Below, in pieces: positions 2,251 to 37,624 of a DNA stretch of 37,789 bases. This DNA is from Bacteroidaceae bacterium. GTDB taxonomy: Bacteria; Bacteroidota; Bacteroidia; Bacteroidales; Bacteroidaceae. A model generated the notes under the pieces. That model was not told the DNA's origin. It did not search any database and was given only the letters and a program-made list of their open reading frames with translations. Every line of letters begins with the position of its first letter. Position 1 is the stretch's first letter. The stretch covers positions 1-37,789 of the forward strand of contig JAFXDG010000003.1 of the NCBI GenBank assembly GCA_017521285.1, given 5' to 3'. The position numbers and the translations under genes are program-made.

Positions 2251-2525
2251 TGCTTTGCAAGGGGTACTTTTTTGCATATATATGCAAACAGACAAGAGGT
2301 AAAAACTGAAAACGGGAAGGGCGTGTGCACACATGCTACCGACCGTGTGCACACGGTCGGTGAAGTTTCTTCAGACACTCTGTTATAAGTTGTACTTACG
2401 GTCAACAGAGGGTGTGCACACGGACAGATGAAGATGTGACCGGAAACAGTTGAAATGTATAAACATACAATCTGACTGTATAAATATGCAAAACTGACCG
2501 CACGAGAATCGCGTATATGCACACG
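2251..2525. repeat. Array of heterogeneous palindromes at about 22-bp spacing
   Basis: Palindromes of differing sequence recur with centres near 2255 (TGCTTTGCA), 2279.5 (TTTGCATATATATGCAAA), 2327.5 (GTGTGCACAC), 2349.5 (perfect 24-bp palindrome at 2338-2361 around GTGTGCACAC), 2371.5 (AGTTTCT-TC-AGACACT), 2392 (TAAGT-TGT-ACTTA), 2416.5 (GTGTGCACAC), 2462.5 (TGTAT-AAAC-ATACA) and 2483.5 (TGTAT-AAAT-ATGCA). Gaps near 2304, 2438 and 2505 hold only weak symmetry. Successive distances are mostly 21-25 bp or twice that. Confidence 0.6.
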
Positions 2526-2707
2526 GATTTTCTTTCGCTCAAATAATGGACAAAAATTCAATCGCACCGTAAGTCACTGATACTTAACTCATAGACAAGC
2601 CCACCTGAGCCTTGGGTTAAGATGAGCTTAGTCATGGGATGATGTCCGCAAAAAAGGGTGCCTTTTCTATTTCTTTACATGGCGAACCACAAAATATTTA
2701 CAACCAT

Positions 2708-4540
2708 TTAATATTTCACCTTGTGTTCAAACGTAGCGATGTTGCCCACACCATCGGTGACGATGATGCGAAGGTTGTGGATTGAACCATCCTTTTTCAA
2801 GGGGGAATCGGAGAGACGAACGATAAGTTGGCGGTTCTTGCTGGTGTACTCCATCAGTGTCCATCGGCCATCAAGGGTGGCCCGATAATGTGAAAGCCCC
2901 GTTTGTGAGTCGGCCACATTCAAGCGAATGACTCCGGTCTTGCTCCAATGGGCAGGCGAAAGAGGGGTCAGCGTGGGAGATATAGTGTCGATAGCAACGA
3001 AAAAGTCACCACCCAATTCGCGCACATTTGCCTTCATCCATCCCTTCTCGTAACGGCCACCCACCGAACCTGTCCATCCGCCCCGTCGTTGGGCGATGTA
3101 GAGTTTGGAAGCGTATGCGGGAGGCAAAGTTGGCCATGGACGGACAAAAGACTCTTCTTCATTGGCATCTACCCGATTCCAACTCTCCTCCGGCCACACC
3201 TTGATGGACAACGGACAATAGGAATGGAGGGGAAGCGGATCGCCGGCAAAGTGATATACGGCTGAGTAAGCATCAGCATCGGGCGAAGCCGTCACGTTGA
3301 TTTCCGTATCTTCGTAAAGCATTCCTTGGGGAATAGCCAACGTCATACCGGGGCGACAGGTCACTACATTATCCACATTATACTTAAGGTAAGAACAGCC
3401 CTGGGTTAAGGTAGGCTTAACCATGGCCTGTTGTCCCTTCAGGTCAAAGGTGTATCTTGAGGTGTTTCCGTGAAGGTCGGCAAGGATGTACTCAAAGTGG
3501 TAAATACGCTCTTCGTCGATGGTGACAATGCCCCTGCCCGCCCCTTGAGCGTGCACCATACGCAAGGGATTCCCGGGTGCGACGAACGATTTCATATACC
3601 ATCGGCGACGTGTCTGATATTCAGCATAATCTGTCCACGAGTTTATCATACGGTTCTCGTCGAACAGGAAGCGGTCAGCACAAGAACTGAACACCTCCAC
3701 ACCATCCACCAACAGGCGCACACTATATACGCCATAGGTATTGTGTGTGCCATCCATATAGTCATTGGCGGAAAGCCCCACGCCCACATCCCCCCAAGCG
3801 GTGATGGATTGGGTAATGCGGTTGCCTTTGCCAAAGTAATAGACACCATCCTTTGCCGCACCACCAACAATTCCCTTCCCTTTCATAGGATAGAGTTTGA
3901 TACGGTGGGCACGTGGCGGACGTGTGTCCTTCAGTTTGTCCTTATAGAAAGTGAGCGGATTGACGGGCTCGTTTGTTTCCGTCAAACGCACCTCCATGTG
4001 CAAATGAGGGCCAAAGGAATAACCCGAATTGCCTGCCCAAGCCACCAATTGCCCCCGCTTAACAGGAAAACAGTCAGGGGTCAGCACTGTATCAAGGGCA
4101 AAAGTCTCGTACTTATATTGATGTTCGCGCACAAGGGAAGCCACTTCGGGAAGGAAACGTTGCAAATGTCCGTGTACGGTGGTATAACCATTATCGTGCG
4201 CAATATAGAGGGCATTACCATATCCGCCCGGTGCCACACTGATGCGCGAGATATACCCATCTGCAGGACAATACAAAGGTTTCCCTTCCACACCTTGTGT
4301 CTTGAAGTCAAGCCCTCCATGAAAATGGTTACTCCGAAGTTCCGCAAAATTTCCACTCAGAAACAAAGGGAAGTCGAAGGGGACACGGAAAAGCCCCTCT
4401 TGCCCAAACATATAAAAGGGAAGAAGGAAAAGGAGAAGAAGCCCCACCCTAACCCTCCCCAAAGGAGAGGGAACAGGAAATGTTTGCTTCTTCTGAACTT
4501 TCCCCCTTTGGGGGGATTGAGGGGAGCTTACTCCTAACAT
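2708..4540 (-). CDS. M23 (LytM-type) metallopeptidase, cell-wall hydrolase-like
   Basis: The 610-residue product is a secreted protein with a LytM/M23 domain at about residues 65-190. The zinc and catalytic residues are visible: H74 and D78 in HGGLD, H125 in HGHL, and H179 and H181 in GPHLHMEV. This family cuts peptidoglycan cross-links or, if inactive, activates amidases; the full ligand set suggests activity. The remaining 400 residues are beta-rich and unassigned. The ATG overlaps the nadC stop codon by 7 bp, implying translational coupling. Between the start and the hydrophobic signal segment (GLLLLFLLPFYMFGQ) lie about 29 proline/glycine-rich residues encoded by an interspersed palindromic element (4442-4524), so the signal peptide has an abnormal n-region. 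A later internal start is not available before the hydrophobic core. Confidence 0.85.
   Translation of the reverse strand: MLGVSSPQSPQRGKVQKKQTFPVPSPLGRVRVGLLLLFLLPFYMFGQEGLFRVPFDFPLFLSGNFAELRSNHFHGGLDFKTQGVEGKPLYCPADGYISRISVAPGGYGNALYIAHDNGYTTVHGHLQRFLPEVASLVREHQYKYETFALDTVLTPDCFPVKRGQLVAWAGNSGYSFGPHLHMEVRLTETNEPVNPLTFYKDKLKDTRPPRAHRIKLYPMKGKGIVGGAAKDGVYYFGKGNRITQSITAWGDVGVGLSANDYMDGTHNTYGVYSVRLLVDGVEVFSSCADRFLFDENRMINSWTDYAEYQTRRRWYMKSFVAPGNPLRMVHAQGAGRGIVTIDEERIYHFEYILADLHGNTSRYTFDLKGQQAMVKPTLTQGCSYLKYNVDNVVTCRPGMTLAIPQGMLYEDTEINVTASPDADAYSAVYHFAGDPLPLHSYCPLSIKVWPEESWNRVDANEEESFVRPWPTLPPAYASKLYIAQRRGGWTGSVGGRYEKGWMKANVRELGGDFFVAIDTISPTLTPLSPAHWSKTGVIRLNVADSQTGLSHYRATLDGRWTLMEYTSKNRQLIVRLSDSPLKKDGSIHNLRIIVTDGVGNIATFEHKVKY
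4442..4524. repeat. Interspersed palindromic element inside the M23 gene start
   Basis: Imperfect inverted arms (CCCTCCCCAAAGGAGAGGG region at 4442-4471, and CCCCCTTTGGGGGG region at 4502-4524) flank about 30 bp. It is translated in frame as residues about 5-33 of the M23 protein (PQSPQRG and PSPLGRVRVG). From memory, similar peptides occur at the start of many predicted Bacteroidetes proteins, which fits a dispersed repeat rather than a protein domain. Confidence 0.65.
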
Positions 4541-5382
4541 GCCTTAAAGCTCATATCCAATCCCTTGACTGAGTGTGTGAGTGCACCTACGGAGATGAAG
4601 TCAACACCACACTCGGCATAATCGCGCAAGGTGTCGAAAGTGATACCACCAGAAGACTCTGTCTCGAAACGTCCACCAATGATTTCCACGGCCTTGCGTG
4701 TATTCTCGGGAGTAAAGTTGTCCAACATGATGCGGTCAACACCTCCGATGGCCAACACTTGGTTGAGCTCGTCGAAGTTGCGCACCTCGATTTCAATCTT
4801 CAAATCCTTGTTGTGAGCCTTGCAATACTCCTTGGCACGCTGGATAGCCTTGTCGATGCCTCCGGCAAAATCCACATGGTTGTCCTTCAAAAGAATCATG
4901 TCGAAAAGGCCGATGCGGTGATTCACTCCGCCACCAATCTTCACGGCAGCCTTCTCCAACATACGGAGGCCCGGAGTTGTCTTGCGGGTGTCGAGCACGC
5001 GGGTGCGTGTACCTTCGAGCTGCTTCACATAGCGGCGTGTCATGGTGGCAATACCACTCATGCGTTGCATCACGTTCAGCATCAGACGCTCGGTTTGCAG
5101 AAGTGATTGAATCTTACCCTCAACCACCATAGCCACATCGCCGGGCTTCACCTCGGTGCCGTCCTCAATCATGACTTCCACTTTCATCGTAGGGTCAAAA
5201 CGGTGGAAAATCTCTTTAGCCACTTCCACACCGGCCAACACACCGGCTTCCTTTATCAACAGACGCGATTTGCCCATTGCATCGGCGGGGATGCAACAAA
5301 GGGTTGTGTGGTCACCATCGCCTATATCTTCAGCAAAAGCGAGGTCAATCAACGAGTCAATCAATTCATCTACGGTTTTCAT
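4534..5382 (-). CDS. nadC: Nicotinate-nucleotide pyrophosphorylase (carboxylating), quinolinate phosphoribosyltransferase
   Basis: The enzyme converts quinolinate and PRPP to nicotinate mononucleotide, CO2 and PPi in de novo NAD synthesis (cytoplasm). The 282-residue length is normal. Family landmarks are all present: AEDIGDGDHTT near residue 18, DTRKTTPG at 131-138, the KIGGGVNHRIGLFDMILLKDNH active-site block at 148-169, the E-x-E at 197-199, LDNF at 220-223 and SSGGI at 243-247. The next gene, an M23 peptidase, overlaps its last 7 bases, so the two are probably one transcript although functionally unrelated. nadA and nadB are not in the window. A leader of about 160 bp separates it from the divergent DUF4136 gene and contains three 8-bp AAGTTTAT-like units at 5408-5431. 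Confidence 0.97.
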   Translation of the reverse strand: MKTVDELIDSLIDLAFAEDIGDGDHTTLCCIPADAMGKSRLLIKEAGVLAGVEVAKEIFHRFDPTMKVEVMIEDGTEVKPGDVAMVVEGKIQSLLQTERLMLNVMQRMSGIATMTRRYVKQLEGTRTRVLDTRKTTPGLRMLEKAAVKIGGGVNHRIGLFDMILLKDNHVDFAGGIDKAIQRAKEYCKAHNKDLKIEIEVRNFDELNQVLAIGGVDRIMLDNFTPENTRKAVEIIGGRFETESSGGITFDTLRDYAECGVDFISVGALTHSVKGLDMSFKAC

Positions 5383-5433
5383 ATTCTTTCTGTTTTTGAG
5401 TTTTTAAAAGTTATCAAGTTTATAAGTTTGGCG

Positions 5434-5441
5434 CGAAAGTA
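5434..5441 (-). promoter_or_regulatory. Possible -7 element for nadC
   Basis: Reading the minus strand, TACTTTCG is one base off the Bacteroidetes -7 consensus TAnnTTTG and lies about 50 bp before the nadC start. No clear -33 TTTG was found. Confidence 0.3.
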
Positions 5442-5489
5442 CGATTATTTTCTCGGATGAGGAAATTTTTGCAGAACATTCTCCGTTGC

Positions 5490-5521
5490 TTTGTGTTTAT
5501 GTCATTGAAAAAATCATTTTG
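5490..5521 (+). promoter_or_regulatory. Possible -33/-7 promoter for the DUF4136 operon
   Basis: TTTG at 5490-5493 is followed after 20 bp by TCATTTTG at 5514-5521, one base off TAnnTTTG. The start codon follows 24 bp later. Confidence 0.45.
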
Positions 5522-5545
5522 TATAACCCCTAAAAAACGGAAAAG

Positions 5546-6166
5546 ATGAAAAGAATGATTCCTATCCTGTTCGCGGCCATCGCACTGACGGCTTGCGAAA
5601 AAGAGCCCGACACGGACAAGCTGGACAACCACTACCTGGTGTACACCGACTATGACAAGAACACCGATTTCGGCGCTCTGAAGACCTACTATGTGCCCGA
5701 CAGCATCCTCTACATCAACACGGGCGACAAGAAGGAGTATTGGCGCGGAGATGCGGCTGAAGCCGTGCGCATGGAGTTCATCGAAAACATGAACGAACAC
5801 TACACCCGCGTAGATAACATGGAAGATGCCGACATCGGCCTCCAACTGAGCTATGTGGCCAGCACCTACACCTTTACCAACTATGGTAACGACCCGTGGT
5901 GGTATGGTTATCCCTACTATTGGACACCCGGATACTGGGGCGGATATTGGGGCGGATGGTACTATCCCTACCCTATTGTCTATAGCTACACCACCGGCTC
6001 CATCATTGCCGAAATGGTAAACCTGAGTGTGCCCGAAGAGAAGAAGTTACCTGTCATCTGGAGTGCCTACATCAGTGGTATATTGAACTCACAAGGAAAG
6101 CTGAACCTGGAGAAGACGGAAGCAGCCATCGACCAGGCTTTCAGACAAACGAGTGTATTAAAATAA
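5546..6166 (+). CDS. DUF4136 domain lipoprotein
   Basis: The 206-residue product has a lipoprotein signal peptide with lipobox LTAC (cleavage before Cys17). The mature part follows the DUF4136 pattern: a short N-terminal strand (YLVYTDYDKNTDFGALKTYYVPD), a middle section where residues become aromatic (PWWYGYPYYWTPGYWGGYWGGW at about 112-133), and the end block IWSAYISGILN with a final helix. DUF4136 proteins are common, poorly characterised envelope lipoproteins. The next gene starts 21 bp later and encodes an outer-membrane barrel, so the two are probably co-transcribed and act together at the outer membrane. Confidence 0.88.
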   Translation: MKRMIPILFAAIALTACEKEPDTDKLDNHYLVYTDYDKNTDFGALKTYYVPDSILYINTGDKKEYWRGDAAEAVRMEFIENMNEHYTRVDNMEDADIGLQLSYVASTYTFTNYGNDPWWYGYPYYWTPGYWGGYWGGWYYPYPIVYSYTTGSIIAEMVNLSVPEEKKLPVIWSAYISGILNSQGKLNLEKTEAAIDQAFRQTSVLK

Positions 6167-6187
6167 AGAATAATAAATTAATGTAAT

Positions 6188-6811
6188 ATGAAAACTATCC
6201 AATATTTTGCTAAAAGAGCAGCTGCCGTATTGGCTATAGCCGCCCTTGCTTGCCTGCCCATGAAGGCACAAGTGTCACAAGATGCCTACTACAACATCGA
6301 TTGGCAATTCAACATACCCTTGGGAAACAATTTCTCCAACCATGCGAGCGGATGGGGTATGAACTTCGAAATGGGTTACTACATTACTCCCGAGTTGGCC
6401 TTGGGTGCCTTCCTGAGCTACCACACTAACAACGAATACTTCGACCGCACCACATTACACATGGGTACTACGGCACTGAATACCGACCAGCAACACTCGC
6501 TCTTCCAATTGCCCTTCGGAGTGTTGGCACACTACCGCTTCAATTACGACAAGTTGCAACCCTACGTGGCCATGAAGCTCGGTGCGGCGTATGCACAGAT
6601 GACATCGGATTACTACATTTTCGAGAGTGACAAGGATACATGGGGATTCTTCGCTTCGCCTGAAGTGGGAGTGCATTTCTATCCGTGGGAGGGAAGCATG
6701 GGCTTCCACGCTGCCCTCTACTACAGCATCTCCACCAACAAGGGAAGCCTGATGACCTACGAAATGAATTGCATCAACTCACTCGGCTTCCGACTCGGAG
6801 TCGCCTTCTGA
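6188..6811 (+). CDS. Outer-membrane beta-barrel protein
   Basis: The 207-residue product has a signal peptide ending near PMKA|QVSQ. It continues as alternating amphipathic strands typical of an 8-stranded OmpA/OmpW-like barrel (for example NMEMGYYITPELALGAFLSY and LFQLPFGVLAHYRFNYDKL) and ends in a terminal aromatic (LGFRLGVAF), the usual BAM-recognition signature. Substrate or partner is unknown. It follows the DUF4136 lipoprotein gene closely and is followed by a strong intrinsic terminator at 6880-6920, so this is a two-gene operon. Confidence 0.85.
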   Translation: MKTIQYFAKRAAAVLAIAALACLPMKAQVSQDAYYNIDWQFNIPLGNNFSNHASGWGMNFEMGYYITPELALGAFLSYHTNNEYFDRTTLHMGTTALNTDQQHSLFQLPFGVLAHYRFNYDKLQPYVAMKLGAAYAQMTSDYYIFESDKDTWGFFASPEVGVHFYPWEGSMGFHAALYYSISTNKGSLMTYEMNCINSLGFRLGVAF

Positions 6812-6879
6812 AAAGAGGAAAAATTGAACAGAGAAAGCGTGCACTTTTTTCCCATCACGTGACGCACACTATATCTGCC

Positions 6880-6923
6880 AAGAGCCGCCCGACGGTCTTT
6901 GTATCACCGGGGCGGCTCTTTTT
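6880..6923 (+). terminator. Rho-independent terminator after the barrel gene
   Basis: An 11-bp perfect stem (AAGAGCCGCCC / GGGCGGCTCTT) encloses a 19-base loop and is followed by a T-rich run. It sits 69 bp after the stop at 6811. Confidence 0.85.
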
Positions 6924-6937
6924 ATAACACCTATTTT

Positions 6938-7149
6938 CTACACGTAAGTTTGAGGAAACTCACACGAGAGTTTCAAGGAAACCACACGAGAGTTTTTCCC
7001 AACTCACATGTGAGATTTTTTGAGCTCACGTGTAGGCGCGAGGGAACTTACGTGTAGGCTCGGAAAAACTTACACGTAAGTTACCCTCGAACTTACGTGT
7101 AAGTTCAAAAAAACTCACGTGTGAGTTTCCAAGAACTTACACGTGAGTT
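6938..7149. repeat. Ten 16-bp palindromes at strict 22-bp spacing
   Basis: The consensus is AACTYAC-RY-GTRAGTT. Centres fall at 6942.5, 6964.5, 6986.5, 7008.5, 7030.5, 7052.5, 7074.5, 7097.5, 7119.5 and 7141.5, so eight of nine intervals are exactly 22 bp and one is 23. Copies at 7067-7082 (AACTTACACGTAAGTT), 7090-7105 (AACTTACGTGTAAGTT) and 7112-7127 (AACTCACGTGTGAGTT) have perfect 7-bp arms. Others (e.g. 6957, AACTCACACGAGAGTT) carry one or two mismatches. The 6-bp spacers between are not conserved. The array fills the space between two convergent genes (6811 and 7216). Confidence 0.9.
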
Positions 7150-7215
7150 TTTTGAAGATCTCTCCCAACGCTCCTATAAGAACAATCAACCAACTGATTA
7201 ACAAGGATTTTCCCA

Positions 7216-8409
7216 TCACAATATCACAAAGCCAGCATCTGCCAATCCCTTATGGATAAGGCAGATGTGTTCAGCATTGCGGGTTTCGAGCACCACACGC
7301 AAGGTGCATCCGTTCACCTGAGCACTGGCATTGGTGCGCTCGTGACTGACACTGATGATGTTTCCTCCCAACTGGGCAATGATGCCACACACGGCCGAAA
7401 GCTGGCCAGGTTGGTCGTAGAGGTCAACGGTAAGGGTCTCCATACGGCCCGACTTGCTGAGTCCTCGGGTAATGACGCGACTGAGGATGGTCACATCTAT
7501 GTTTCCTCCCGACACCAAGCAAATCACCTTCTTTCCCTTGACTGGCACTTTGTTGAACATGGCAGCAGCTACGGCCACGGCTCCTGCACCCTCGGCCACC
7601 AGTTTCTGTTGCTCGATAAGGGCCAGGATGGCAGCGGCAATCTCATCGTCCGTCACGGTGACAATGCCATCCACATAGCGTTGGCAGAAGTCGAAGGTGT
7701 TTACTCCAGGCTCCTTCACGGCAATGCCATCGGCTATGGTCGATACTGATTCGAGACGCTCAATCTGCTTCCTCCTCAACGATTCGGCCATGCTGGGTGC
7801 CCCTTCGGCTTGCACGCCATACACTTGCACCGAGGGCTTCAATTGCTTGATGGCACACGCCACACCCGAAATGAGGCCTCCACCTCCCACGGGTACGATA
7901 ACCACATCCACATCGCCCATCTCATCCAACATCTCAAGGCCGATGGTGCCCTGACCGGCAATCACATGCAAGTCATCAAAAGGATGGACAAAAGTATAGC
8001 CTTTCTCATCGCGCAACTGGAGGGCATGCTGGTAAGCATCATCATAGACCCCCGGCACCAGACACACCTCGGCACCATAGCGCTTCGTTGCCTCCACCTT
8101 CGAAATAGGAGCACCGGCGGGCAGACAGATGAGCGAGGATATGCCGCTCTTGGTTGCCGCCAAAGCCACTCCCTGTGCATGATTGCCTGCCGAGCAGGCG
8201 ATCACACCATGACTTTTCTCCTCGTCGGAGAGTTGGGAAATCTTGTAGTAAGCACCGCGTAACTTGAACGAACCGGTGTATTGCAGATTCTCGGGCTTCA
8301 GGAATATTTCACTTTCGGGATTTATCAAGGGAGCCGCTATCAAATGAGGATGGCGGATGGCATCGCGCAAAACATGCGCTGCCTTATAGATTTCACTGAG
8401 TTCAAGCAT
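7216..8409 (-). CDS. ilvA: Threonine ammonia-lyase (threonine dehydratase), medium form with ACT-like domain
   Basis: This PLP enzyme deaminates L-threonine to 2-oxobutanoate, the first committed step toward isoleucine. The product is 397 residues from the chosen start. PLP lysine K49 lies in GSFKLRG, the asparagine motif in ACSAGNHAQG (71-80), and the phosphate-binding glycine loop in VPVGGGGLISG (172-182). A C-terminal ACT-like regulatory domain spans about 325-397 (LTVDLYDQPGQLSAV onward). The start at 8409 is preferred over the longer frame beginning at 8508. It has a good Shine-Dalgarno (AAGGAGAAG), the protein family begins there, and a -7 promoter motif at 8463-8470 lies downstream of the longer start. 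It stands alone; no other branched-chain genes are adjacent. Confidence 0.93.
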   Translation of the reverse strand: MLELSEIYKAAHVLRDAIRHPHLIAAPLINPESEIFLKPENLQYTGSFKLRGAYYKISQLSDEEKSHGVIACSAGNHAQGVALAATKSGISSLICLPAGAPISKVEATKRYGAEVCLVPGVYDDAYQHALQLRDEKGYTFVHPFDDLHVIAGQGTIGLEMLDEMGDVDVVIVPVGGGGLISGVACAIKQLKPSVQVYGVQAEGAPSMAESLRRKQIERLESVSTIADGIAVKEPGVNTFDFCQRYVDGIVTVTDDEIAAAILALIEQQKLVAEGAGAVAVAAAMFNKVPVKGKKVICLVSGGNIDVTILSRVITRGLSKSGRMETLTVDLYDQPGQLSAVCGIIAQLGGNIISVSHERTNASAQVNGCTLRVVLETRNAEHICLIHKGLADAGFVIL

Positions 8410-8462
8410 CTTTCTTCTCCTTTCTATATACAAACGTGTTTTCAATAACACAAATGTGTCCG

Positions 8463-8470
8463 CAAAGCTA
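8463..8470 (-). promoter_or_regulatory. -7 promoter element for ilvA
   Basis: The minus strand reads TAGCTTTG, a perfect TAnnTTTG, 54 bp before the chosen start. A matching -33 TTTG is not evident. Confidence 0.5.
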
Positions 8471-8739
8471 CGAATATTTTCTTGAACAATACACCAATAC
8501 TTCCACATATTTTTTTCCCTACCTGAAAAAAACTTTTCCCAAACGTGCCGGAAAAAACTCAGGGGTAAAGCAGATAAAAGAAGTCCTCAAAGCTCTTGAT
8601 GAAAGATGTGGGATAAAGAACGGGGCTTCCAATGTCAGAAACAGGAAGTAGGCTGTCCGAAAAGTCGTATTTAGCACTCTATTTTGCACAAAGCAGAAAC
8701 AAATGTGCAGAAATAGGAGTATATTTCTCTTTTTATTTG

Positions 8740-8747
8740 TAATTTTG
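8740..8747 (+). promoter_or_regulatory. Likely -7 element for the acyltransferase-MMPL operon
   Basis: TAATTTTG matches TAnnTTTG. The upstream -33 position lacks TTTG. Confidence 0.4.
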
Positions 8748-8815
8748 CAACTTCCTTTGCCTTCGGAGGCATCTTCGGGGGCAGGCAGATTATAACAAAG
8801 AGGAGAAAAGACTAT

Positions 8816-10177: not shown

Positions 10178-10209
10178 TCATTGAAAACCATACAAGAAAG
10201 TAGAAAGAA

Positions 10210-11430: not shown

Positions 11431-11462
11431 TAACTAACCAATAAACAAAAACAAACGTAACA

Positions 11463-15793: not shown

Positions 15794-15931
15794 CTTGAGA
15801 AGAGGCAACGCACCATCTTGATGTTGCCCATCGGGAGAACTTGATGTCGTCCATCGGGAGAACTTGATGTCGTCGGGGATGAGAACTTGATGTCGTCAAA
15901 GGGGAGAACTTGATGTCACAGCAAGGAGGAA
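15794..15931. repeat. Six direct repeats of exactly 23 bp
   Basis: Units start at 15794, 15817, 15840, 15863, 15886 and 15909. The conserved part is CTTGATGTCGTC at the front and GAGAA at the end. The middle 6 bp vary between units (CATCGG, GGGGAT, AAAGGG). The first and last units are more diverged. They are not palindromic. Confidence 0.9.
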
Positions 15932-30011: not shown

Positions 30012-30043
30012 CAAAAATACAAATATTATACAAGAGTATCAAA
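30012..30043 (-). promoter_or_regulatory. -33/-7 promoter of the T9SS cargo operon
   Basis: On the minus strand, TTTG (30043-30040) is followed after 20 bp by TATTTTTG (30019-30012), a perfect TAnnTTTG. The start codon at 29881 follows after a leader of about 125 bases. Confidence 0.7.
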
Positions 30044-30254
30044 GAAATGGTTATATAATGTACGCAATGACAGTTTTTTTTCATTTTATTCAGTTATTTT
30101 TTGCATAATAATACCATTTTTATAACATTTGAAAGGCGGTTAAAAACCACTTACCCTACCGGTTAGAGGAACCGGTCAGAAACATGACTGAAAGAGACTC
30201 ATAAAAGATGGAATATCAGGCAAAAAAAGAGCAAACAACCTTCATACTTCTTCA

Positions 30255-30332
30255 TTTCACGTCGTGGAACACTCATTTCACGCTTTGGAATATTCATTTC
30301 ACGACGTGAAATGGTCGTTTCGCGACGTGAAA
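30255..30332. repeat. Four 15-bp palindromes at exact 21-bp spacing
   Basis: Copies start at 30255 (TTTCACGTCGTGGAA), 30276 (TTTCACGCTTTGGAA), 30297 (TTTCACGACGTGAAA, perfect arms) and 30318 (TTTCGCGACGTGAAA). The 6-bp spacers are CACTCA, TATTCA and TGGTCG. The array lies downstream of the minus-strand glycosyltransferase gene. Confidence 0.88.
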
Positions 30333-30418
30333 CGAAGAAATGAAACAGTTATTCCGTTTTCTTCATCGGGCATCGGAGAAAAAGGGTAAAGGAAACAAAT
30401 AGTTATCGGGCGCAATGA

Positions 30419-31432
30419 TTACGCCTCGGGAAGTTCTTTGCCGGAGAGACGATAGAAGAAGCGACGAAGAGCGGTATAGACACGAGTCTGGAAAAGGAAA
30501 AGACGAGGAAACGACGAGAGCGGCCAATACCCGAACTTGCGGACGGCTGAATCCGGAAGCCGCCATGCTTCGATGGTGGAGTGGAAATGCAGCAGTTTCT
30601 GACAGATTTCGCACTGCTGCCCGGACGTAAAGGCACGACGGTTCGTCCAATAAAAGACACACAAACCGACCAGATTCAGCCACCGGTGCTGTTCGTACTG
30701 GCTTATGATTTCATCGGCAACGCCCAAACACACCAAAGTCTGTTTCATGGTGTAGTTGGCATCCAAGTAAAGGAAACGCAACGGACTGATCGTGTGGGTC
30801 ATCGACGCGGCGTGCTGACGATAGAAATAGACACCTTCGCAACGGGCCACGCTGCGGGAATCGAGGTAATGAAGACGGGTGGTGTTGTCATCGCTGTAGA
30901 GACGCGAACCGGTGTCGTAGGGATGGCGGAGATGAATTTCGCGGCGCACCATGTAGAGGCCATGAATACTCCAGTCGAGGCTCAGGCGGAAAGCCTCTTC
31001 GCCTGTCCAATGGCGTGCCTCGGTACGGTAAGCATATCCCCATTCACTTCCCGTAGAATCGTCGTGATAACACAAGTCGAAAAGGACACAGTCACATGCA
31101 TTCCCCTCCTCCCGTGCCATCCGACAAGCGGATTCGATGGCATCGGGCGAAAACCAGTCATCACTGTCGAGCATCGTGATATATTCCCCTTCGGCCACCT
31201 GCAGTCCACGATTACGGGCTTCGGCCTGACCACGATTCTCTGATTGTCTCAGCAATACGATACGCTCATCCTTGGCTGCATACTCCTCCAACAGCTGCCA
31301 CGAGTCATCCGTCGATGCGTCATCCACACAGATAATCTGTATGTCCCGATGTGTCTGATTCACCAGCGAATCCAAGCACTTACGCAAATACGGTCCGGCA
31401 TTATACACCGCCACAAGTACTGAAACTTTCAT
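30419..31432 (-). CDS. Family 2 glycosyltransferase
   Basis: The 337-residue cytosolic enzyme has a GT-A fold. The N-terminal nucleotide-sugar block is KVSVLVAVYNAGPYLRKCLDSL, followed by IICVDDASTDDSW and NRGQAEARNRGLQVAEGEYITMLDSDDW, in which DSDD (91-94) is the metal-binding DxD. The C-terminal 130 residues are variable and set acceptor choice. It starts 12 bp after the flippase gene, so both are one transcript. It likely adds one sugar to a surface polysaccharide repeat unit; the sugar cannot be told from sequence. Confidence 0.92.
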   Translation of the reverse strand: MKVSVLVAVYNAGPYLRKCLDSLVNQTHRDIQIICVDDASTDDSWQLLEEYAAKDERIVLLRQSENRGQAEARNRGLQVAEGEYITMLDSDDWFSPDAIESACRMAREEGNACDCVLFDLCYHDDSTGSEWGYAYRTEARHWTGEEAFRLSLDWSIHGLYMVRREIHLRHPYDTGSRLYSDDNTTRLHYLDSRSVARCEGVYFYRQHAASMTHTISPLRFLYLDANYTMKQTLVCLGVADEIISQYEQHRWLNLVGLCVFYWTNRRAFTSGQQCEICQKLLHFHSTIEAWRLPDSAVRKFGYWPLSSFPRLFLFQTRVYTALRRFFYRLSGKELPEA

Positions 31433-31444
31433 ATCGTCAAAGCC

Positions 31445-32950
31445 TTATCTTCCTATACGTCGCCGTACTTTGTTCCACAACTCCTGCAATATGGTGGTTT
31501 CCCTCAACAGGATACGGACTGACACCACTGTGGAGAAAAATATACAGAGGCCGCCAAACATCCAATAGGCCGCCCCTTCCAATTGGGTGGTGACAAGAAA
31601 CGCAACCACACCGAACGGGAGCTGGAGAGCCAGCATCTTCACGGCTTTTCCCATTAAGACAAATCCGTACAACCGGCGTGCCGTCAGCCACACCAACACC
31701 AAATCAAAGGTCGCAGCTACAGACAGGGCGATACCTGCCCCACGCAACCCTGCCACCGTATATCCATAGACAATCAGGCAGACAGCAGCCACATCATACA
31801 CCGCTTCGGTAAACAGATAGACACGCGAGCGCCCTTTTGCCAACGAGAAATAGGAAATCGGCAAAGCCACCGAACGCATATACATTCCGAAAATGGCACA
31901 TTGGGCCATACCGATGACGGGCATGAACTCTTCGTTGTAAAACAATGGCAACAAAATGGGCAAAGCTACCCACAAGGCCACCAACATGGGAGCCACAAGC
32001 AGTACCGAAACCTCTATCTGACGGTTGATGACATCGTTGGCCCTCACCACATCGTTGTTCACGGCTGACAGGCGGGGGAAAAAGTCAGTCTCCATAGCCG
32101 TAAACACCATAGAGGCATAGGTTACGGTTATCAGATAACCGGCATTGTACATACCCACATCGGCCTCGGAGCCTGTCCGCATCATATAGACACGTATCAG
32201 GAACTCTACTCCCGACCCCAAGATGCCGGCCAAAATGAAAGCCGTTCCAAAAGTGACCATCCGCCGCCCCTCCGCATAGGAATACTTCTTATCCTGAGAA
32301 AGAGAGAAGGGATAACAACGGAACGAGAAGAAGATGGTGGTCAGCATCGTGCACAAGGCCACAAGTACCAAGGAACCGACAATGGCACTTTCGCCCCACA
32401 CATAGAACAATGGTACAGAAATGACCAGCGCACACAGGGAGTTGAGCAACGACTGCATGGCCACACGCCGTAGCCGGCGTGCTCCTTTCAAGATGGCCAT
32501 TTCGCCGCCCGTGAAGGCCATCAGCCCTACCATGGGAGAGAGCCATACAAACGAGAGCCACTCATCGGGATTTTCAAAATAGGAATAACTGAGAAAGACA
32601 GAGAACAGGCAACAAATCAACATGCCCAGGACTCCCGTGGCAATGCTCCACGAACGTACGACCTGGATGAAACGCAACAAAGCCTGCTCGTCGTTCTGTT
32701 CACTGAGTTCAGCCACACGGCGCACCGCACTGAACGAAATACCGAAATTCGTAGAATTGCTCAACAGGGTGGCCGCAGCATTGTACGACGAGATAAGACC
32801 CACGCCTGCAGGTCCCAGGATTTCGGCCACCAGTTTGTTGCGCACGATTGCGGTCAATAGGCTAATGCCCTGTACACCACCAAAAAGGCCCGTGTACTTT
32901 ATGATATGGTCATACGCCGTATTCCGTTTCTTTTCCCCTTTATTATGCAT
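31445..32950 (-). CDS. Polysaccharide/O-antigen flippase (Wzx-like, MOP superfamily)
   Basis: The 501-residue polytopic inner-membrane protein has about 12-14 helices and the typical Wzx opening (HIIKYTGLFGGVQGISLLTAIVRNKLVAEILGPAGVGLISSYNAAATLLSNSTNFG). It would flip undecaprenyl-linked oligosaccharide to the periplasmic face for polymerisation or transfer. It is divergent from the plus-strand glycosyltransferase genes across a 92-bp region containing two facing -7 motifs. It is followed by a family 2 glycosyltransferase gene. Confidence 0.9.
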   Translation of the reverse strand: MHNKGEKKRNTAYDHIIKYTGLFGGVQGISLLTAIVRNKLVAEILGPAGVGLISSYNAAATLLSNSTNFGISFSAVRRVAELSEQNDEQALLRFIQVVRSWSIATGVLGMLICCLFSVFLSYSYFENPDEWLSFVWLSPMVGLMAFTGGEMAILKGARRLRRVAMQSLLNSLCALVISVPLFYVWGESAIVGSLVLVALCTMLTTIFFSFRCYPFSLSQDKKYSYAEGRRMVTFGTAFILAGILGSGVEFLIRVYMMRTGSEADVGMYNAGYLITVTYASMVFTAMETDFFPRLSAVNNDVVRANDVINRQIEVSVLLVAPMLVALWVALPILLPLFYNEEFMPVIGMAQCAIFGMYMRSVALPISYFSLAKGRSRVYLFTEAVYDVAAVCLIVYGYTVAGLRGAGIALSVAATFDLVLVWLTARRLYGFVLMGKAVKMLALQLPFGVVAFLVTTQLEGAAYWMFGGLCIFFSTVVSVRILLRETTILQELWNKVRRRIGR

Positions 32951-32970
32951 CTCTGTCGAACAATATCGGG

Positions 32971-33009
32971 CAAAGATAGTGCTTTATTCACGAATTTCCA
33001 CTATCTTTG
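32971..33009. promoter_or_regulatory. Face-to-face -7 elements of the divergent polysaccharide genes
   Basis: CAAAGATA at 32971-32978 is TATCTTTG on the minus strand (toward the flippase). TATCTTTG at 33002-33009 faces the plus strand (toward the GT2 gene). Both are the same perfect TAnnTTTG octamer. Neither has a clear -33 TTTG. Confidence 0.55.
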
Positions 33010-33042
33010 TGAAGTTTTTACAATTTGACATTTCGTTTTTGG

Positions 33043-34065
33043 ATGAAACTGAGCATAATTGTCCCCGTATATAACGTGGAGAAGTACCTGCACGAATGCC
33101 TCGAAAGCATTCTTGGCCAAAAGTTCACAGACTATGAGCTGATATTGGTTGACGACGGTTCGACTGACCGCTGCGGAACCATCTGTGACGACTACGCCAG
33201 GAAGGATGTCAGGATTCGGGTCATCCATCGCGAAAACGGAGGACTGAGTGCCGCACGCAACACGGGACTGGACACAGCCCAAGGGGAATACATCGCCTTT
33301 GTTGATGCCGATGACCATATAGGGAAAGGGTTCCTCGCGCGTGCCATGCAGCTGGCCGATGCCGACGAAACTCCTGCCGACATCATTGAAATGCCCGTAG
33401 AAGTGTATTACAACTCCCCCACCCGACATTACCTCTATGGGGACAGTCTGGATAACGACCTGACGTGCCACTTCCCCCAATCGTGGACCACATGGATTGA
33501 AACGGAAGGCATCACACACACCTATGCCTGGAACAAACTGTACCGGAGCAAGCTGTTCAGGAAACTGCGTTTCCCCGAAGGACGGACCTTCGAAGACCTT
33601 CACACCATTCCCAAACTGATGAAGAAGGCAAGGACTGTCACCTTCTGCGGACCGACAACAGCGGAAGAGCGCTATTACTACCGATTCCGCGAAAGCTCCA
33701 TCACCACCGCTGCCGGCCGACGCACACTGAACGATGCACTGAGGCACCACTGCCCGCTCATGTCAGAACTGACCTATACGACCTACTCCGTTTCACCACG
33801 GAGCATCGGACGCTACTTCATCCAAGTGACCAACCTCTTCATTGACCTGCTGAGAAAGCTCGACAAGGCTGACATGCAGGACGAGGAGCAGGCAGCCCTC
33901 ATCAAGAAGGTACACAAGCACCTCAAGAGGCTGAACCCCGGAAAAAAGCATGTCATGCAAGCCGCCGACGGGACAAGAGAAAAGGTGAAGAACCTCACCC
34001 TGGCACTCTTCGGCGTCAGATGGCACTGTTTCCTCTACAGCAGACGATGGTACCCAATCCGCTAA
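33043..34065 (+). CDS. Family 2 glycosyltransferase
   Basis: The 340-residue GT-A enzyme has KLSIIVPVYNVEKYLHECLESIL at the start, VDDGSTDRCG, then NGGLSAARNTGLDTAQGEYIAFVDADDH with DADD as the metal site (about 92-95). The ATG at 33043 is chosen. A TTG 18 bases upstream would put residues before the conserved first strand and lies close to the promoter. It is the first gene of a plus-strand trio for surface-polysaccharide assembly, and 13 bp separate it from the next glycosyltransferase gene. Confidence 0.93.
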   Translation: MKLSIIVPVYNVEKYLHECLESILGQKFTDYELILVDDGSTDRCGTICDDYARKDVRIRVIHRENGGLSAARNTGLDTAQGEYIAFVDADDHIGKGFLARAMQLADADETPADIIEMPVEVYYNSPTRHYLYGDSLDNDLTCHFPQSWTTWIETEGITHTYAWNKLYRSKLFRKLRFPEGRTFEDLHTIPKLMKKARTVTFCGPTTAEERYYYRFRESSITTAAGRRTLNDALRHHCPLMSELTYTTYSVSPRSIGRYFIQVTNLFIDLLRKLDKADMQDEEQAALIKKVHKHLKRLNPGKKHVMQAADGTREKVKNLTLALFGVRWHCFLYSRRWYPIR

Positions 34066-34078
34066 CCCCCAACTGACT

Positions 34079-35062
34079 ATGTTACTATCTGTCATTATAC
34101 CTTATTATAATATAGAAGACAAGCTCCTCATCCGATGCGTGAACAGTGTGCTGAATGCAGGCATGAACGAAGAGGACTACGAAATCATCCTCGTGGATGA
34201 CGGCTCGGAACGTCCGCCCGTACAGACCGAGGAGTACTTCATCGACAACCGGCAAATCCGTTGGAGTCCCATGCTCCACCGAGGACTGGGAGCCGCACGC
34301 AACCACGGGAGCAAGCAGGCACGAGGCGAATACATCCTCTACCTCGATGCCGACGATTACCTCTATGCCGGAACATTCCTCCCTGTATGGGAAGAGACCG
34401 TCAGAAGCCGCTGCGACATCATGCGCTTCGGCTACCACTTCTGCACGTCGATAGAGGAAGAACACCCCAAACAACCTGCCACGCCAACATTCTCACAGCC
34501 CGTGGACGGCAACACCTACATGCAGACCCATCACCTGCCGGGTATGGCCTGCGTCTATCTGTTCCGCAAAACGCTACGTACCGATGTCGGACTGAATTTC
34601 TCGGAAAAGGGCTTTATCGAGGACGAAGCTTTCACGACCATCCTGCACTACAGGGCACGGAGCGTTGTTGAAAGCAACACCTTCGTATATGCCTACTACA
34701 AACGGGCCGGCTCCATCACACAAAACCGCTCCTTTGACAGGCAGTCCCAATTGAGTTACGGACTTTTCAGAGCCATCAACGATGTATATGACTTCCGTCG
34801 TGTGCTGTATGCCGACCAACTCCCCACCCAAGGCATAGACCGCAAACTGAACGCACTCACAGTCGATCTCATCAGGCGCATCCTTACCAACGACTATTGG
34901 GAGTTGGAATGGATAAAGTATGAACGCCTCCTACAACCGCTGCACCTGCTTCCGCTGAAAGGGTGCGACTACACGTTCAAATACCGTATGTTCAGCCGTC
35001 TGTCCAACCATTCATGGGGCCGTTCCCTCCTGCGGACACTGTTGACCCTCGGCATCCATTAA
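34079..35062 (+). CDS. Family 2 glycosyltransferase
   Basis: The 327-residue enzyme opens with LLSVIIPYYNIEDKLLIRCVNSVL, has VDDGSERPP, and then RGLGAARNHGSKQARGEYILYLDADDYL with DADD as the catalytic metal motif (about 94-97). It differs from its neighbour in the C-terminal half, so it probably transfers a different sugar or uses another acceptor. It sits between two glycosyltransferase genes with gaps of 13 and 24 bp. Confidence 0.93.
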   Translation: MLLSVIIPYYNIEDKLLIRCVNSVLNAGMNEEDYEIILVDDGSERPPVQTEEYFIDNRQIRWSPMLHRGLGAARNHGSKQARGEYILYLDADDYLYAGTFLPVWEETVRSRCDIMRFGYHFCTSIEEEHPKQPATPTFSQPVDGNTYMQTHHLPGMACVYLFRKTLRTDVGLNFSEKGFIEDEAFTTILHYRARSVVESNTFVYAYYKRAGSITQNRSFDRQSQLSYGLFRAINDVYDFRRVLYADQLPTQGIDRKLNALTVDLIRRILTNDYWELEWIKYERLLQPLHLLPLKGCDYTFKYRMFSRLSNHSWGRSLLRTLLTLGIH

Positions 35063-35086
35063 ACCCACCACTCTCCCACCGGCACT

Positions 35087-36196
35087 ATGAAGATATTATT
35101 TATCGGAGAATACAGCAACGTCCACTGGACCTTGGCCGAAGGACTACGCGCCCTTGGGCATCAAGTCTGCGTGGTCTCAAACGGCGACTTCTGGAAGAAC
35201 TATCCACGCGACATATCCCTGGTGCGCCCCACACAAGGCAAATGGGACGGCATCCGTTATCTGTTCAAAGTCATAGCCACCCTGCCCCGTCTGCGCGGGT
35301 ATGACATCGTACAGCTCATCAATCCCTGTTTTCTGGAGCTGAAGGCCGAGCGGCTGTATGCCGTGTACCGATACCTCCGCCGCCACAACGGCAAAGTGTT
35401 TCTGGGCGGATACGGCATGGACTACTATTGGGTACACACATGTACGACAACACAGACGTTCCGCTATTCGGACTTCAACTTCGGGACAACCCTTCGCGAC
35501 AGCGAAGCCATACGCCACGAGATTGCCGACTGGATTCACGGAGAGAAGAGCCGCCTCAACCGCTACATTGCAGCAGATTGCGACGGAATCCCTACCGGCC
35601 TTTACGAATACTACGCCTGCTATCACCCCCATTTCCCGGAAAAGACAGCATTCATCCCCTTCCCTATCAATATCAGCAGCCTCAGTCCGCGTGAACCACG
35701 CCAGGCAGGAAGCCCCGTCAGATTCTTCATCGGCATCCAGCGTACCCGCAGCGAATACAAGGGGACTGACATCATGCTACGCGCACTCGAACGGCTCCAC
35801 CAAGCATACCCTGACAGATGCGAGATTGTCAAGGCTGAATCGGTGCCCTACGAAGAATACCAGCACCTGATGAACACCTCCGATGCCATCCTCGACCAGC
35901 TCTATTCCTATACCCCCGCCATGAACGCCCTCGTAGCAATGGGCAAAGGACTGATACTCGTCGGTGGAGGTGAACCGGAAAATTATCAGATAATCCAAGA
36001 GGAGGAATTGCGCCCCATCATCAACGTCCTGCCCAACGAAGAAGATGTCTATCACCAATTGGAACAACTCGTTCTCCACCCCGAACGCCTTGAACGCTTG
36101 TCTGCCGAAAGCCGCCTCTACGTAGCCCGCCATCACGACCACGTGAAGGTAGCCCGGCAATATCTCCAATTTTGGCTTACTTCGAAGAAAAAATAA
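35087..36196 (+). CDS. Glycosyltransferase, GT-B fold (family 4/1-like)
   Basis: The 369-residue product begins MKILFIGEYSNVHWTLAEGL and has the GT-B Rossmann layout. The first half holds the acceptor domain (GHQVCVVSNGDFW; YDIVQLINPC). The second half holds the sugar-nucleotide domain, with FFIGIQRTRSEYKGTDIMLRAL (about 209-230), the SVPYEEYQHLMNTSDAILDQLYSYTPAMNALVAMGKG block and the late GGEPENY region in place of the usual E-x7-E motif. It closes the plus-strand trio; no terminator was found before the tRNA promoter 65 bp later. Confidence 0.85.
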   Translation: MKILFIGEYSNVHWTLAEGLRALGHQVCVVSNGDFWKNYPRDISLVRPTQGKWDGIRYLFKVIATLPRLRGYDIVQLINPCFLELKAERLYAVYRYLRRHNGKVFLGGYGMDYYWVHTCTTTQTFRYSDFNFGTTLRDSEAIRHEIADWIHGEKSRLNRYIAADCDGIPTGLYEYYACYHPHFPEKTAFIPFPINISSLSPREPRQAGSPVRFFIGIQRTRSEYKGTDIMLRALERLHQAYPDRCEIVKAESVPYEEYQHLMNTSDAILDQLYSYTPAMNALVAMGKGLILVGGGEPENYQIIQEEELRPIINVLPNEEDVYHQLEQLVLHPERLERLSAESRLYVARHHDHVKVARQYLQFWLTSKKK

Positions 36197-36260
36197 TCGT
36201 CTGACTATCAAGGATGTTTAAAATATCTTCCAAATAAATTTGAAAAAAGTTCCGCAAAAG

Positions 36261-36291
36261 TTTGCCACTTCAAAAAAAAGCAGTACCTTTG
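36261..36291 (+). promoter_or_regulatory. Promoter of the tRNA-Asp pair
   Basis: TTTG at 36261-36264, a 19-bp spacer, then TACCTTTG at 36284-36291 match the -33/-7 consensus exactly, 64 bp before the first tRNA. Confidence 0.8.
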
Positions 36292-36355
36292 CACCCGCAA
36301 TCGAGAGAGATAGCAATCACACAAAGATGTGATTCAACAAAAATAAGAAACAATT

Positions 36356-36429
36356 GGTGCGTTAGTTCAGTTGGTTAGAATACATGCCTGTCACGCATGG
36401 GGTCACGGGTTCGAGTCCCGTACGCACCG
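36356..36429 (+). tRNA. tRNA-Asp (GTC), copy 1
   Basis: The 74-nt cloverleaf has acceptor stem GGTGCGT/ACGCACC with discriminator G. The anticodon loop is CTGTCAC (anticodon GTC), and the T arm contains GGTTCGAGTCC. CCA is not encoded. Confidence 0.97.
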
Positions 36430-36447
36430 CCTCTTTCATCACAAAGA

Positions 36448-36521
36448 GGTGCGTTAGTTCAGTTGGTTAGAATACATGCCTGTCACGCATGGGGTCACGG
36501 GTTCGAGTCCCGTACGCACCG
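36448..36521 (+). tRNA. tRNA-Asp (GTC), copy 2
   Basis: Identical to the copy at 36356-36429, 18 bp downstream, and presumably processed from the same transcript. Confidence 0.97.
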
Positions 36522-36522
36522 C

Positions 36523-36554
36523 AAAAAGGAATCCTACTTAGGGTTCCTTTTTTG
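36523..36554 (+). terminator. Terminator after the tRNA pair
   Basis: AAGGAATCC pairs with GGGTTCCTT (one wobble) around a 6-base loop, followed by a run of T. It starts immediately after the second tRNA. Confidence 0.8.
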
Positions 36555-36718
36555 TTTTACATCTGTCCAATAAAAAACAAAAGTCCGGAAAGGGAATCTT
36601 ATCAAGATACCAATTGAACAGACCGCATATAATCATTCCTAACGGATGTTGTTTGCTAATAGATTCAACAATATAAAGGCTCCTACAACCACAGCCAGCA
36701 GTGAACCCACTACATGTT

Positions 36719-37222
36719 TTACGACTTCATATATTCCACAATAAATGAATATGCGAACAAACCTAAAATCGTAGTCAAAAAACCTCCAATGCAAAAAGCC
36801 ACAGCCATCCATTTACACTTTCTTTGCCATCGGGCATCTTTCTTCTCAAACTTTTTGTAATAATTCAAATAAACGTCATTTGACAACACGGCTTTATAGG
36901 CAGGGATATATCCCACCAAAATTGGCAACCCCATCAAAAGTAATGTAACTATTTTATTGTCAATATCAAAGAATACATCCTTTACCCCCAATAAGATAAA
37001 AGAAAAGAACAAAAAATATCCAGAATAGCAATAACCAAAAAAATGATTAACAAGCCCCATGTGGAAGGATTTCATAAAACTTTCAGTTTCATTTATTTTT
37101 GCTTGAACAACCCGTTCCTTTTTCTTCGGAGTTATTTTCAAAAGGATACTGTTGAGTTTTGAATCCACTGCTAATTGGAAATGGAAAAGACCATAATGAA
37201 TTTTATTCAAAAAACAAATCAT
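36719..37222 (-). CDS. Small membrane protein of unknown function
   Basis: The 167-residue product has three predicted helices (YFLFFSFILLGV region near 75-90, TLLLMGLPILVGYIPAY near 97-113, WMAVAFCIGGFLTTILGLFAYSFIV near 137-162) and a basic stretch between the last two (YYKKFEKKDARWQRKCKW). I recognise no family. It is AT-rich relative to the polysaccharide genes. A decayed copy of its C-terminal half lies immediately upstream (37236-37415), aligned over the same basic stretch and last helix. This indicates a tandem duplication with loss of one copy. Confidence 0.6.
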   Translation of the reverse strand: MICFLNKIHYGLFHFQLAVDSKLNSILLKITPKKKERVVQAKINETESFMKSFHMGLVNHFFGYCYSGYFLFFSFILLGVKDVFFDIDNKIVTLLLMGLPILVGYIPAYKAVLSNDVYLNYYKKFEKKDARWQRKCKWMAVAFCIGGFLTTILGLFAYSFIVEYMKS

Positions 37223-37235
37223 ACTAAATTTATTT

Positions 37236-37415
37236 TTACATACAATACGTGATTAACAAAAGAACAATTCCAAATATTTCCACTAAAATGCTTCCTCCAA
37301 TAAATGCAACGGTAGTCCATCTTAATTTACTATGCCAATTACCATCCTTTTTTTATATATTTTGAAATATTTCATATAGCAATCAGTTTGTATTACGCTT
37401 GCAATATACGCATAA
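37236..37415 (-). pseudogene. Decayed paralogue of the adjacent small membrane protein
   Basis: On the minus strand one frame reads YAYIASVIQTDCYMKYFKIYKK, then after a one-base slip in a run of seven A it continues KDGNWHSKLRWTTVAFIGGSILVEIFGIVLLLITYCM and stops. This aligns with PAYKAVLSNDVYLNYYKKFEKK and KDARWQRKCKWMAVAFCIGG... of the intact gene at 36719-37222. The 5' part also resembles that gene's first 30 bases (ATTTGTTTT, GAATAAAA, CATTATG), suggesting an internal deletion. Confidence 0.6.
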
Positions 37416-37526
37416 TGTTTTATTCTGCAAAACAAATCAAAAGAAATGTATGCAGAACAAAGTAAAATGCCTGAAAAGAGAGAAAAAACATCAAAAACAG
37501 TACTCCTATTCCAAAGACAAAACGGT

Positions 37527-37624
37527 CCTTTTTCACGCAGCTGGCTGCAATGACTGAGACAGCAGGCTGCATCGGCTCACACAGCCTGCTGCGATGGCCA
37601 ATGCAGCCTGCTGCGTGAAAAAGG
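37527..37624. repeat. Four GC-rich repeats at exact 22-bp spacing, bounded by 15-bp inverted repeats
   Basis: Copies at 37538 (CAGCTGGCTGC), 37560 (CAGCAGGCTGC), 37582 (CAGCCTGCTGC) and 37604 (CAGCCTGCTGC) are imperfect palindromes; the first two are close to the reverse complement of the last two. The ends CCTTTTTCACGCAGC (37527-37541) and GCTGCGTGAAAAAGG (37610-37624) are exact inverted repeats. Confidence 0.88.

Follow-up and report, generated by a model that had tools for sequence, protein, structure and literature searches.

Dispersed intergenic elements with rows of sites every 21–23 bp in a Bacteroidaceae genome

Introduction

How do arrays of different sequence come to share nearly one spacing? 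The question is raised by a 37,789-bp stretch of DNA from a gut bacterium of the Bacteroidaceae (GenBank assembly GCA_017521285.1, contig JAFXDG010000003.1), hereafter the window. It is one contig (C55) of the draft genome, 3.38 Mb in size, that we call G000. Its intergenic regions contain several rows of short, mostly palindromic sites placed every 21–23 bp, about two turns of the double helix. A preliminary description of the window proposed that selection, or a copying mechanism, acts here on geometry. Our analysis of G000 and related genomes partly bears this out: spacing is kept while sequence changes, and selection on length and spacing is the favored form of the idea. Two of the arrays belong to dispersed elements, termed A and B, and a further dispersed element is found in a genome of the same genus (G008).

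Spacing of palindromic sites

Pairs of similar palindromes were sought with arms of 7 (at most one mismatch), a pair identity of at least 70%, and a distance of at most 70 bp. The G000 sample covers 347 kb, including 54 kb of intergenic DNA; genes were called from open reading frames (ORFs) plus hexamer calls, with no published gene finder. All 21 pairs in this sample lie at 21–24 bp or multiples of these distances (21 bp four times; 22, 23, and 24 bp three times each; 42, 48, and 63 bp twice each; 45 and 66 bp once each). They are intergenic, coding DNA giving none and shuffled sequence a mean of 0.2. In G008, a genome of three contigs from which 600 kb were taken at 30 places, 114 of 134 intergenic pairs stand at exactly 22, 44, or 66 bp (61, 36, and 17 pairs), with 21 bp seen seven times, 14 bp six times, and seven other distances once each; coding DNA again gave none, and the shuffle mean was 0.6. 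The 14-bp and some of the 21-bp pairs look like arrays of TTGACAA-type heptamers. A stricter scan (arms of 8, a 200-kb sample of G008) placed 33 of 34 pairs at 22, 44, or 66 bp and one at 21 bp, against zero across 20 shuffles. Five sister genomes pooled gave 22 and 44 bp twice each and no other distance.

The regularity does not extend to the bases between the arms. Among AAAC-N6-GTTT sites in the 600 kb of G008, all 39 neighbors at most 60 bp apart are separated by 22 bp, while identity between neighbors is 41% in the 6-bp spacers and 69% in the central 6 bp. A period histogram of intergenic DNA made with Tandem Repeats Finder (TRF) peaks at 21 (12) and 22 (15) in G000 and at 22 (25) in G008, with shuffles at 1.3 or less per period. 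In short, arrays spaced at 21–23 bp are in excess over shuffled intergenic DNA and their periods are not flat, as the preliminary description had expected. Its peak near 22 is found as a peak at 21–22, but 22 is not the sole preferred period: a second TRF population in intergenic DNA has periods of 7, 8, and 14. Arrays of that population, with 7-, 8-, 13-, 14-, and 16-bp units of AAGGTCA, CGTTGATA, and GCCATAGCC types, occur at 1754–2172 of the window and in many other G000 stretches (e.g., L043, L044, L053, L054, and L058), and several copies of element A directly adjoin a GCCATAGCC-type array.

Small samples of further genomes gave 22/44-bp pairs in Phocaeicola vulgatus (one), G001 (three), and G010 (one), as well as three 23/46-bp pairs in G015, from a different genus of the same family. 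Only off-lattice distances came from G034, G009, G003, G019, and G022, bar one of 42 bp (G019) and one of 46 bp (G034), and the sample of G001, G003, and G010 held one coding pair, at 42 bp. Pairs were absent from the small samples of G016 (40 kb) and G032/G039 (36 kb) and from 20 kb each of G023, G026, G030, G031, G029, G007, G006, and G024.

Dispersed elements of near-fixed length

Element A is about 500 bp long (borders taken from a stacked profile of its copies) and holds a core array and a less conserved right segment in a conserved shell. It occupies 40 places in G000, the window copy included (40 of 69 candidates scored). Six of these are at contig ends (C127, C124, C68, C85, C105, and C7), where a single copy may in some cases have been counted as two; the element probably breaks the assembly, and further copies may be hidden. 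Of the 29 G000 copies in which the core was measured, 25 have one of 162 bp and four have one of 161 or 163 bp. The right segment, at a conservation of 0.26–0.49 bits in a gapless stack (0.83–0.95 in a gapped alignment), is 142 bp in 19 of 30 copies, 141 in four, 143 in two, and 140 and 130 in one each, with three unmeasured. Two copies have an 11-bp deletion in common, and in G002 two copies carry the window's type of core, core 1, at 184 and 185 bp (+22 and +23). Total length measured by regular expression is bimodal (about 497 and 520 bp), presumably because the right end carries two TTKACA motifs, and that figure was not used. One G000 copy (L258) has a single dyad unit, GAGTTTCTTCAGACACTC, in reversed orientation within an otherwise uninverted element, which suggests that units flip or that their orientation is neutral.

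Element B has 14 places in G000 (40 of 47 candidates scored). At 13 distinct loci its sites give 35 spacings of 21 bp and two of 42 bp; four units pass at 11 of these, and unit 3 of L275 and L276 has diverged further but keeps the register. In the window copy the array as a whole is an inverted repeat with 44-nt arms that are 77% complementary. An imperfect unit, TTTCACGCTTTGGAA, occupies position 2 at nine loci. In L271, L274, L275, and L276 its reverse complement occupies position 3 instead, and the array there appears inverted relative to the chosen orientation of the flanks, themselves partly inverted repeats.

The element of G008 is about 563 bp long and found at about 40 places (40 of 107 candidates scored); its two-site pattern occurs 76 + 74 times, compared with 0 + 0 for the reversed control. 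Its 22-bp rows are built of AAAC-N6-GTTT, TAAGTATYATACTTA, TGGGACT-N3-AGTCCCA, or TACGGACGCGTCCGTA sites, and AAAC..GTTT and AAGTAT..ATACTT sites are mixed within one row in L144, L168, and L169. In a set of 28 copies (L220 and L222 excluded) the length is 561–564 bp, and the variable segment between the anchors is 96 bp in 22 copies, 95 in three, 97 in two, and 141 in one. The median pairwise identity of this segment is 0.33, close to saturation, versus a shell mean of 0.81 (378 pairs).

Insertions and deletions (indels) were counted as events per substitution: for element A over 120 random pairs from 27 copies, and for the control between intergenic DNA of the window and orthologous sister stretches of similar divergence. 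The value is 0.039 in element A and 0.083 in the G008 element versus 0.219 in orthologous intergenic DNA, that is, 5.6 and 2.6 times rarer; coding DNA has 0 to 0.023. These figures bear on the possibility that the arrays are neutral minisatellites, in which slippage or unequal crossing-over multiplied a chance unit of about 22 bp. Such a process would suit the direct 23-bp array at 15815–15920, repeat H, and the change in unit number at the locus of array C (all in Table 1), as well as the 7-, 8-, 13-, and 14-bp arrays. It sits badly with the constant unit number of element B, with arms that are conserved where spacers are less so, with several unrelated families near one period, with an unconserved segment of fixed length, and with the depletion of indels. 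We regard it as very unlikely in general, and it is disfavored for A, B, and the G008 element.

Exchange of cores within one shell

In five sister genomes and two duplicates of these, many copies match element A in the flanks only; the search gave no copy in P. vulgatus or Heminiphilus faecis. In 20 sister copies that were read, the shell of element A surrounds other, unrelated cores (cores 2–5), whose spacings were measured on 13 copies. Core 2 (CTCTCGAGAG / AGCGGCT) has sites 23 bp apart, with two steps of 28 bp to the outer site. The site steps are 21, 22, and 43 bp in core 3 (CTCTTAAGCG) and 22 and 44 bp in core 4 (GCGGATGTTTAGGAGC, a direct repeat). Core 5 (GTGTGAACAC type), with steps of 21–23 bp, comes from one copy whose left shell was unmatched by BLAST. 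Outside the shell, palindromes of the core 3 type are present in G000 as well (L045 and L048).

Different cores are also seen at orthologous positions. At the window locus, beside a peptidoglycan-hydrolase-like gene (2708–4540), G014 carries core 2 where G000 carries core 1; at a second locus, G000 (L240, core 1) and G012 (L311, core 2) have a common flank that is 88% identical. No element was found downstream at the window locus in G012, G002, G011, G005, G006, or G004 (611 bp only in the last). Among 15 distinct copies in G014, nine hold core 2 (179 bp), two core 1, and four a core of 229–231 bp, so homogenization within the species is incomplete. The earlier suggestion that the palindromes diversify by concerted change finds its support here, in the form of block replacement, with cores swapped within a conserved shell. 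From these sequence patterns we infer that conversion between copies would run through the common shell.

In viral contigs, two core patterns had no matches and the shell pattern had one, in an IMG/VR contig (L385, IMGVR_UViG_3300022601_000549). This contig contains element A with a core-4-like array and is likely host DNA beside a provirus.

Coding, RNA, and mobility

The elements lie between called genes, with two overlaps, of 9 or 17 bases. Protein coding was rejected for element A and the G008 element, as most copies have stops in all six frames. The longest nearly stop-free run (60 codons) is on the minus strand of the core, and the 110-aa minus-strand ORF at 2235–2567 is not taken as a gene because most copies contain stops and cores are exchanged. 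A CRISPR (clustered regularly interspaced short palindromic repeats) array is implausible given the 12–17-bp units, short spacers, and dispersed copies; no search for cas genes was made.

A role as terminator or promoter, judged by position, was rejected as well, and the termination-associated structure suggested earlier gains no support, since orientation to genes is mixed. Neighboring strands are −− 7, −+ 6, +− 3, and ++ 3 among 30 copies of element A (11 without both neighbors called) and −− 6, −+ 6, ++ 6, and +− 4 among 28 of the G008 element (six incomplete). This also counts against RNA or cruciform hairpins that would serve transcript stability or termination or be targets of SbcCD. Palindromes as such, the inverted-repeat form of whole arrays B and F, and a lean toward G.T in the half-changed arm pairs of the G008 element speak for hairpins. 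On the other side, half-changed pairs in element A show no G.U bias (132 G.T, 157 A.C). In element B, with one inherited imperfect unit excluded, 32 of 273 arm pairs are changed on one side and 1 of 273 is compensated (72 and 2 of 364 with that unit included). The G008 element has no covariation stripe, and hairpins should tolerate indels in loops and spacers. Because element A lacks the bias and arm changes in B are almost never compensated, double-stranded DNA is preferred over RNA, and hairpins seem to us very unlikely. In the window, Rfam reports two tRNAs only at its gathering threshold.

The main rival reads the elements as non-autonomous transposons akin to miniature inverted-repeat transposable elements (MITEs), the palindromes being sites for a transposase or accessory protein needed for mobility and the array type following the transposase of each species. 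Dispersal in mixed orientation, presence or absence between species at an orthologous locus, and matching inverted flanks in several copies of B (e.g., L269 and L272) agree with this, as do the IS5-like terminal inverted repeats known in the BrickBuilt repeat discussed below (PMC4596501). The ends of element A give 15.5 terminal inverted matches versus 15.2 in shuffled sequence (22 of 30 copies measured), which is chance level. A ±4-bp search for target duplications, without shuffled control, gave none in 17 of 22 copies and 4 bp in 5 of 22. A MITE would not be expected to keep its internal length strictly over hundreds of bases, and transposition does not explain why one shell holds different cores at the same fixed locus. 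No clean empty site was found: among 30 G000 loci compared with sister loci, one had both flanks, with the element present. We consider the MITE reading unlikely, albeit less so than hairpins or minisatellites.

Rows of protein dimers as a proposed explanation

Any explanation has to cover dispersal, fixed spacing, near-fixed segment lengths, indel depletion, the noncoding nature of the elements, and different cores at two orthologous loci. With coding, RNA hairpins, and slippage disfavored for A, B, and the G008 element, and no terminal inverted repeats in A, a constraint on the length and phase of double-stranded DNA remains, and for this reason a row of protein dimers is favored. We give about even credence to the proposal that the elements, as double-stranded DNA, are platforms on which dimeric proteins dock. 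The working part would be a series of sites (in many cases four dyads) that recur after every two helical turns, and each site would bind a dimer of a DNA-binding protein, the dimers being aligned along one face. Array and shell would then form one nucleoprotein complex with little tolerance of length change. Copies may exchange sequence by conversion via their common shells, so that a new recognition sequence could spread while the geometry stays. Chromosome organization, recombination, or self-maintenance are conceivable roles. A transposon-like origin is compatible with such a platform.

Several observations weigh against this proposal. Pairs of unlike palindromes fall on the lattice weakly: 29 of 180 in G008 lie at 22k±1 versus 6.3 of 56 in shuffles, with the highest peak at 33 bp, and 9 of 47 in G000 versus 3.7 of 29.5, with no excess in the five sister genomes (3 of 28 versus 2.8 of 22 shuffled). 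This makes a strict lattice beyond the cores less credible, and the palindrome pitch drifts outside the core of element A. Cores 3 and 4 include some steps of 43–44 bp, and families differ in using 21, 22, 23, or 24 bp. The 11 youngest pairs of G008 copies (shell identity at least 0.9) are still 0.68 identical in the variable segment, so the constant length there is partly recent copying. Indels are less extremely depleted in the G008 element than in A, and the control compares species where the elements are compared within one genome. Half-changed arm pairs in the G008 element (22 G.T, 12 A.C) are too few to decide. Finally, no binding protein was identified, and no search for one was made.

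Arrays within the window

All arrays named in the preliminary description were found (Table 1); palindromic sites make up four (A, C, B, and F) and direct repeats two (15815–15920 and 1925–1980). That the five main arrays are unrelated single cases no longer stands, because A, B, and C are members of multi-copy families.

Table 1. Arrays and elements located in the window
Feature	Positions	Strand	Description
Repeat H	1925–1980	+	AACAAGATTGCT direct repeat every 22 bp; good units at 1925 and 1947, degenerate unit at 1969
Element A copy	2177–2705	+	Conserved shell, core array, near-fixed-length right segment, two TTKACA motifs at right end
Core 1 of element A	2291–2452	+	GTGTGCACAC-type palindromes; 162 bp between shell anchors
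Array C	6938–7149		AACTYACRYGTRAGTT palindromes; 22-bp period, one 23-bp step, one unit skipped
Array G	15815–15920	+	Five direct 23-bp repeats with AACTTGATGTCGTC core, not palindromic
Element B copy	30238–30345		Four TTTCACGWCGTGAAA-like sites spaced by 21 bp; flanks in part inverted
Array F	37527–37624		Four GCAGCNNGCTGC-like sites at 22 bp; whole array an inverted repeat with 43-nt arms

A fixed period of 21, 22, or 23 bp, as first proposed, holds for B (21; sites at 30255, 30276, 30297, and 30318), F (22; 37537, 37559, 37581, and 37603), G (23), and H (22), and nearly so for C (6957, 6979, 7001, 7045, 7067, 7090, 7112, and 7134). It is less well kept at 2251–2525: an array is present, but GTGTGCACAC stands at 2323, 2345, and 2412 (steps of 22 and 67 bp) with a degenerate site at 2515, other palindromes are also found, and the whole is part of a longer element. 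Spacers were described as unconserved. They are indeed less conserved than arms between adjacent units, at 23% of 30 spacer bases versus 80% of 80 arm bases in C and 44% of 18 versus 82% of 45 in B.

Related arrays of C occur elsewhere in G000 (C104 and C77). At the locus of array C, G014 has about two units, G002 five, and G012 a different 27-bp repeat, and none were found in G011. Judged by the threonine ammonia-lyase at 7216–8508, the genome is nearest to Bacteroidaceae metagenome-assembled genomes obtained from the rectum of sheep and the colon of roe deer (94%), with P. vulgatus ATCC 8482 at 77%. Arrays G and F have no second place in the 347-kb sample (E 1e-4), and repeat H has one more copy, adjoining another element A copy in L046. 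For the plain direct repeats first placed at 15794–15931 and 1923–1958, ordinary duplication is enough. Two adjacent tRNA genes of equal score (36356–36429 and 36448–36521) lie upstream of array F. Elsewhere in G000, triple 9-bp repeats of CGCGGATTA type, some as inverted pairs, occur at eight places, five of them between convergent genes (L044 7632/7693, L045 19392, L051 5763, L054 14814, L056 15937, L057 10074/10153, and L058 7864/7910 and 14820), and are perhaps another dispersed intergenic repeat.

Relation to described repeats

Short palindromic intergenic repeats in many copies are familiar from REPIN/REP sequences, where hairpin pairs are tied to a RAYT transposase; we know of no lattice of several dyads among them. 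Plasmid iterons and other multi-site nucleoprotein arrays place sites about every two helical turns, with proteins on one face. Iterons are direct repeats at a single replication locus, unlike the tens of chromosomal, mostly palindromic copies here. The literature searched gave no recognized description of 21–23-bp palindrome lattices or of core exchange in Bacteroidales.

Nonetheless, the earlier statement that no such element has been described was too strong, as two repeats are similar in form in the parts of their descriptions drawn on here (PMC4596501; PMC4755523). BrickBuilt of Porphyromonas gingivalis is a dispersed intergenic repeat with a leader, a tandem array of 23-nt units (1 to 22.8 of them), and a tail. 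Its units are imperfect, with non-conserved sites mostly in one half, and it has terminal inverted repeats like those of the IS5 family (PMC4596501). Element A and the G008 element resemble it in having conserved flanks around a 21–23-bp array at tens of intergenic places, and the window elements differ in lacking its terminal inverted repeat: GAGACCTTTGCA has five matches in the window, each with two mismatches, versus 3.1 expected, and none inside the arrays or element A. The parts of the BrickBuilt paper considered report neither a fixed length nor array exchange within a conserved shell (PMC4596501). PINSR of Prevotella intermedia is a 188-bp noncoding, intergenic, lineage-specific repeat without terminal inverted repeats, present in 177 and 184 copies in two strains with about three quarters of positions common (PMC4755523). 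It is like element A in being noncoding, intergenic, and without terminal inverted repeats, and no palindrome lattice is described in the portion used, the comparison being by description and not by sequence (PMC4755523). The window elements can be seen as a new variant of this BrickBuilt/PINSR-like kind, not as members of either.

Implications

The usual reading of repeats dispersed between bacterial genes is that they are transposon debris or RNA hairpins. A near-unconserved segment of almost base-exact length, together with ordered shells and arrays, points instead to selection on DNA geometry. Because two orthologous loci differ in the array within the same shell and five unrelated cores share nearly one pitch, the recognition sequence turns over while the architecture is kept. 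On a more tentative note, Bacteroidaceae chromosomes may carry docking elements that keep their geometry and hold the recognition sequence as a replaceable cassette able to spread through many loci of a species, protein and sites co-evolving; we see this wider picture as possible rather than probable. If true, a bacterial DNA-binding protein would here be co-evolving rapidly with the dispersed sites that belong to it, and if a protein is responsible, those sites are already mapped at tens of places per genome.

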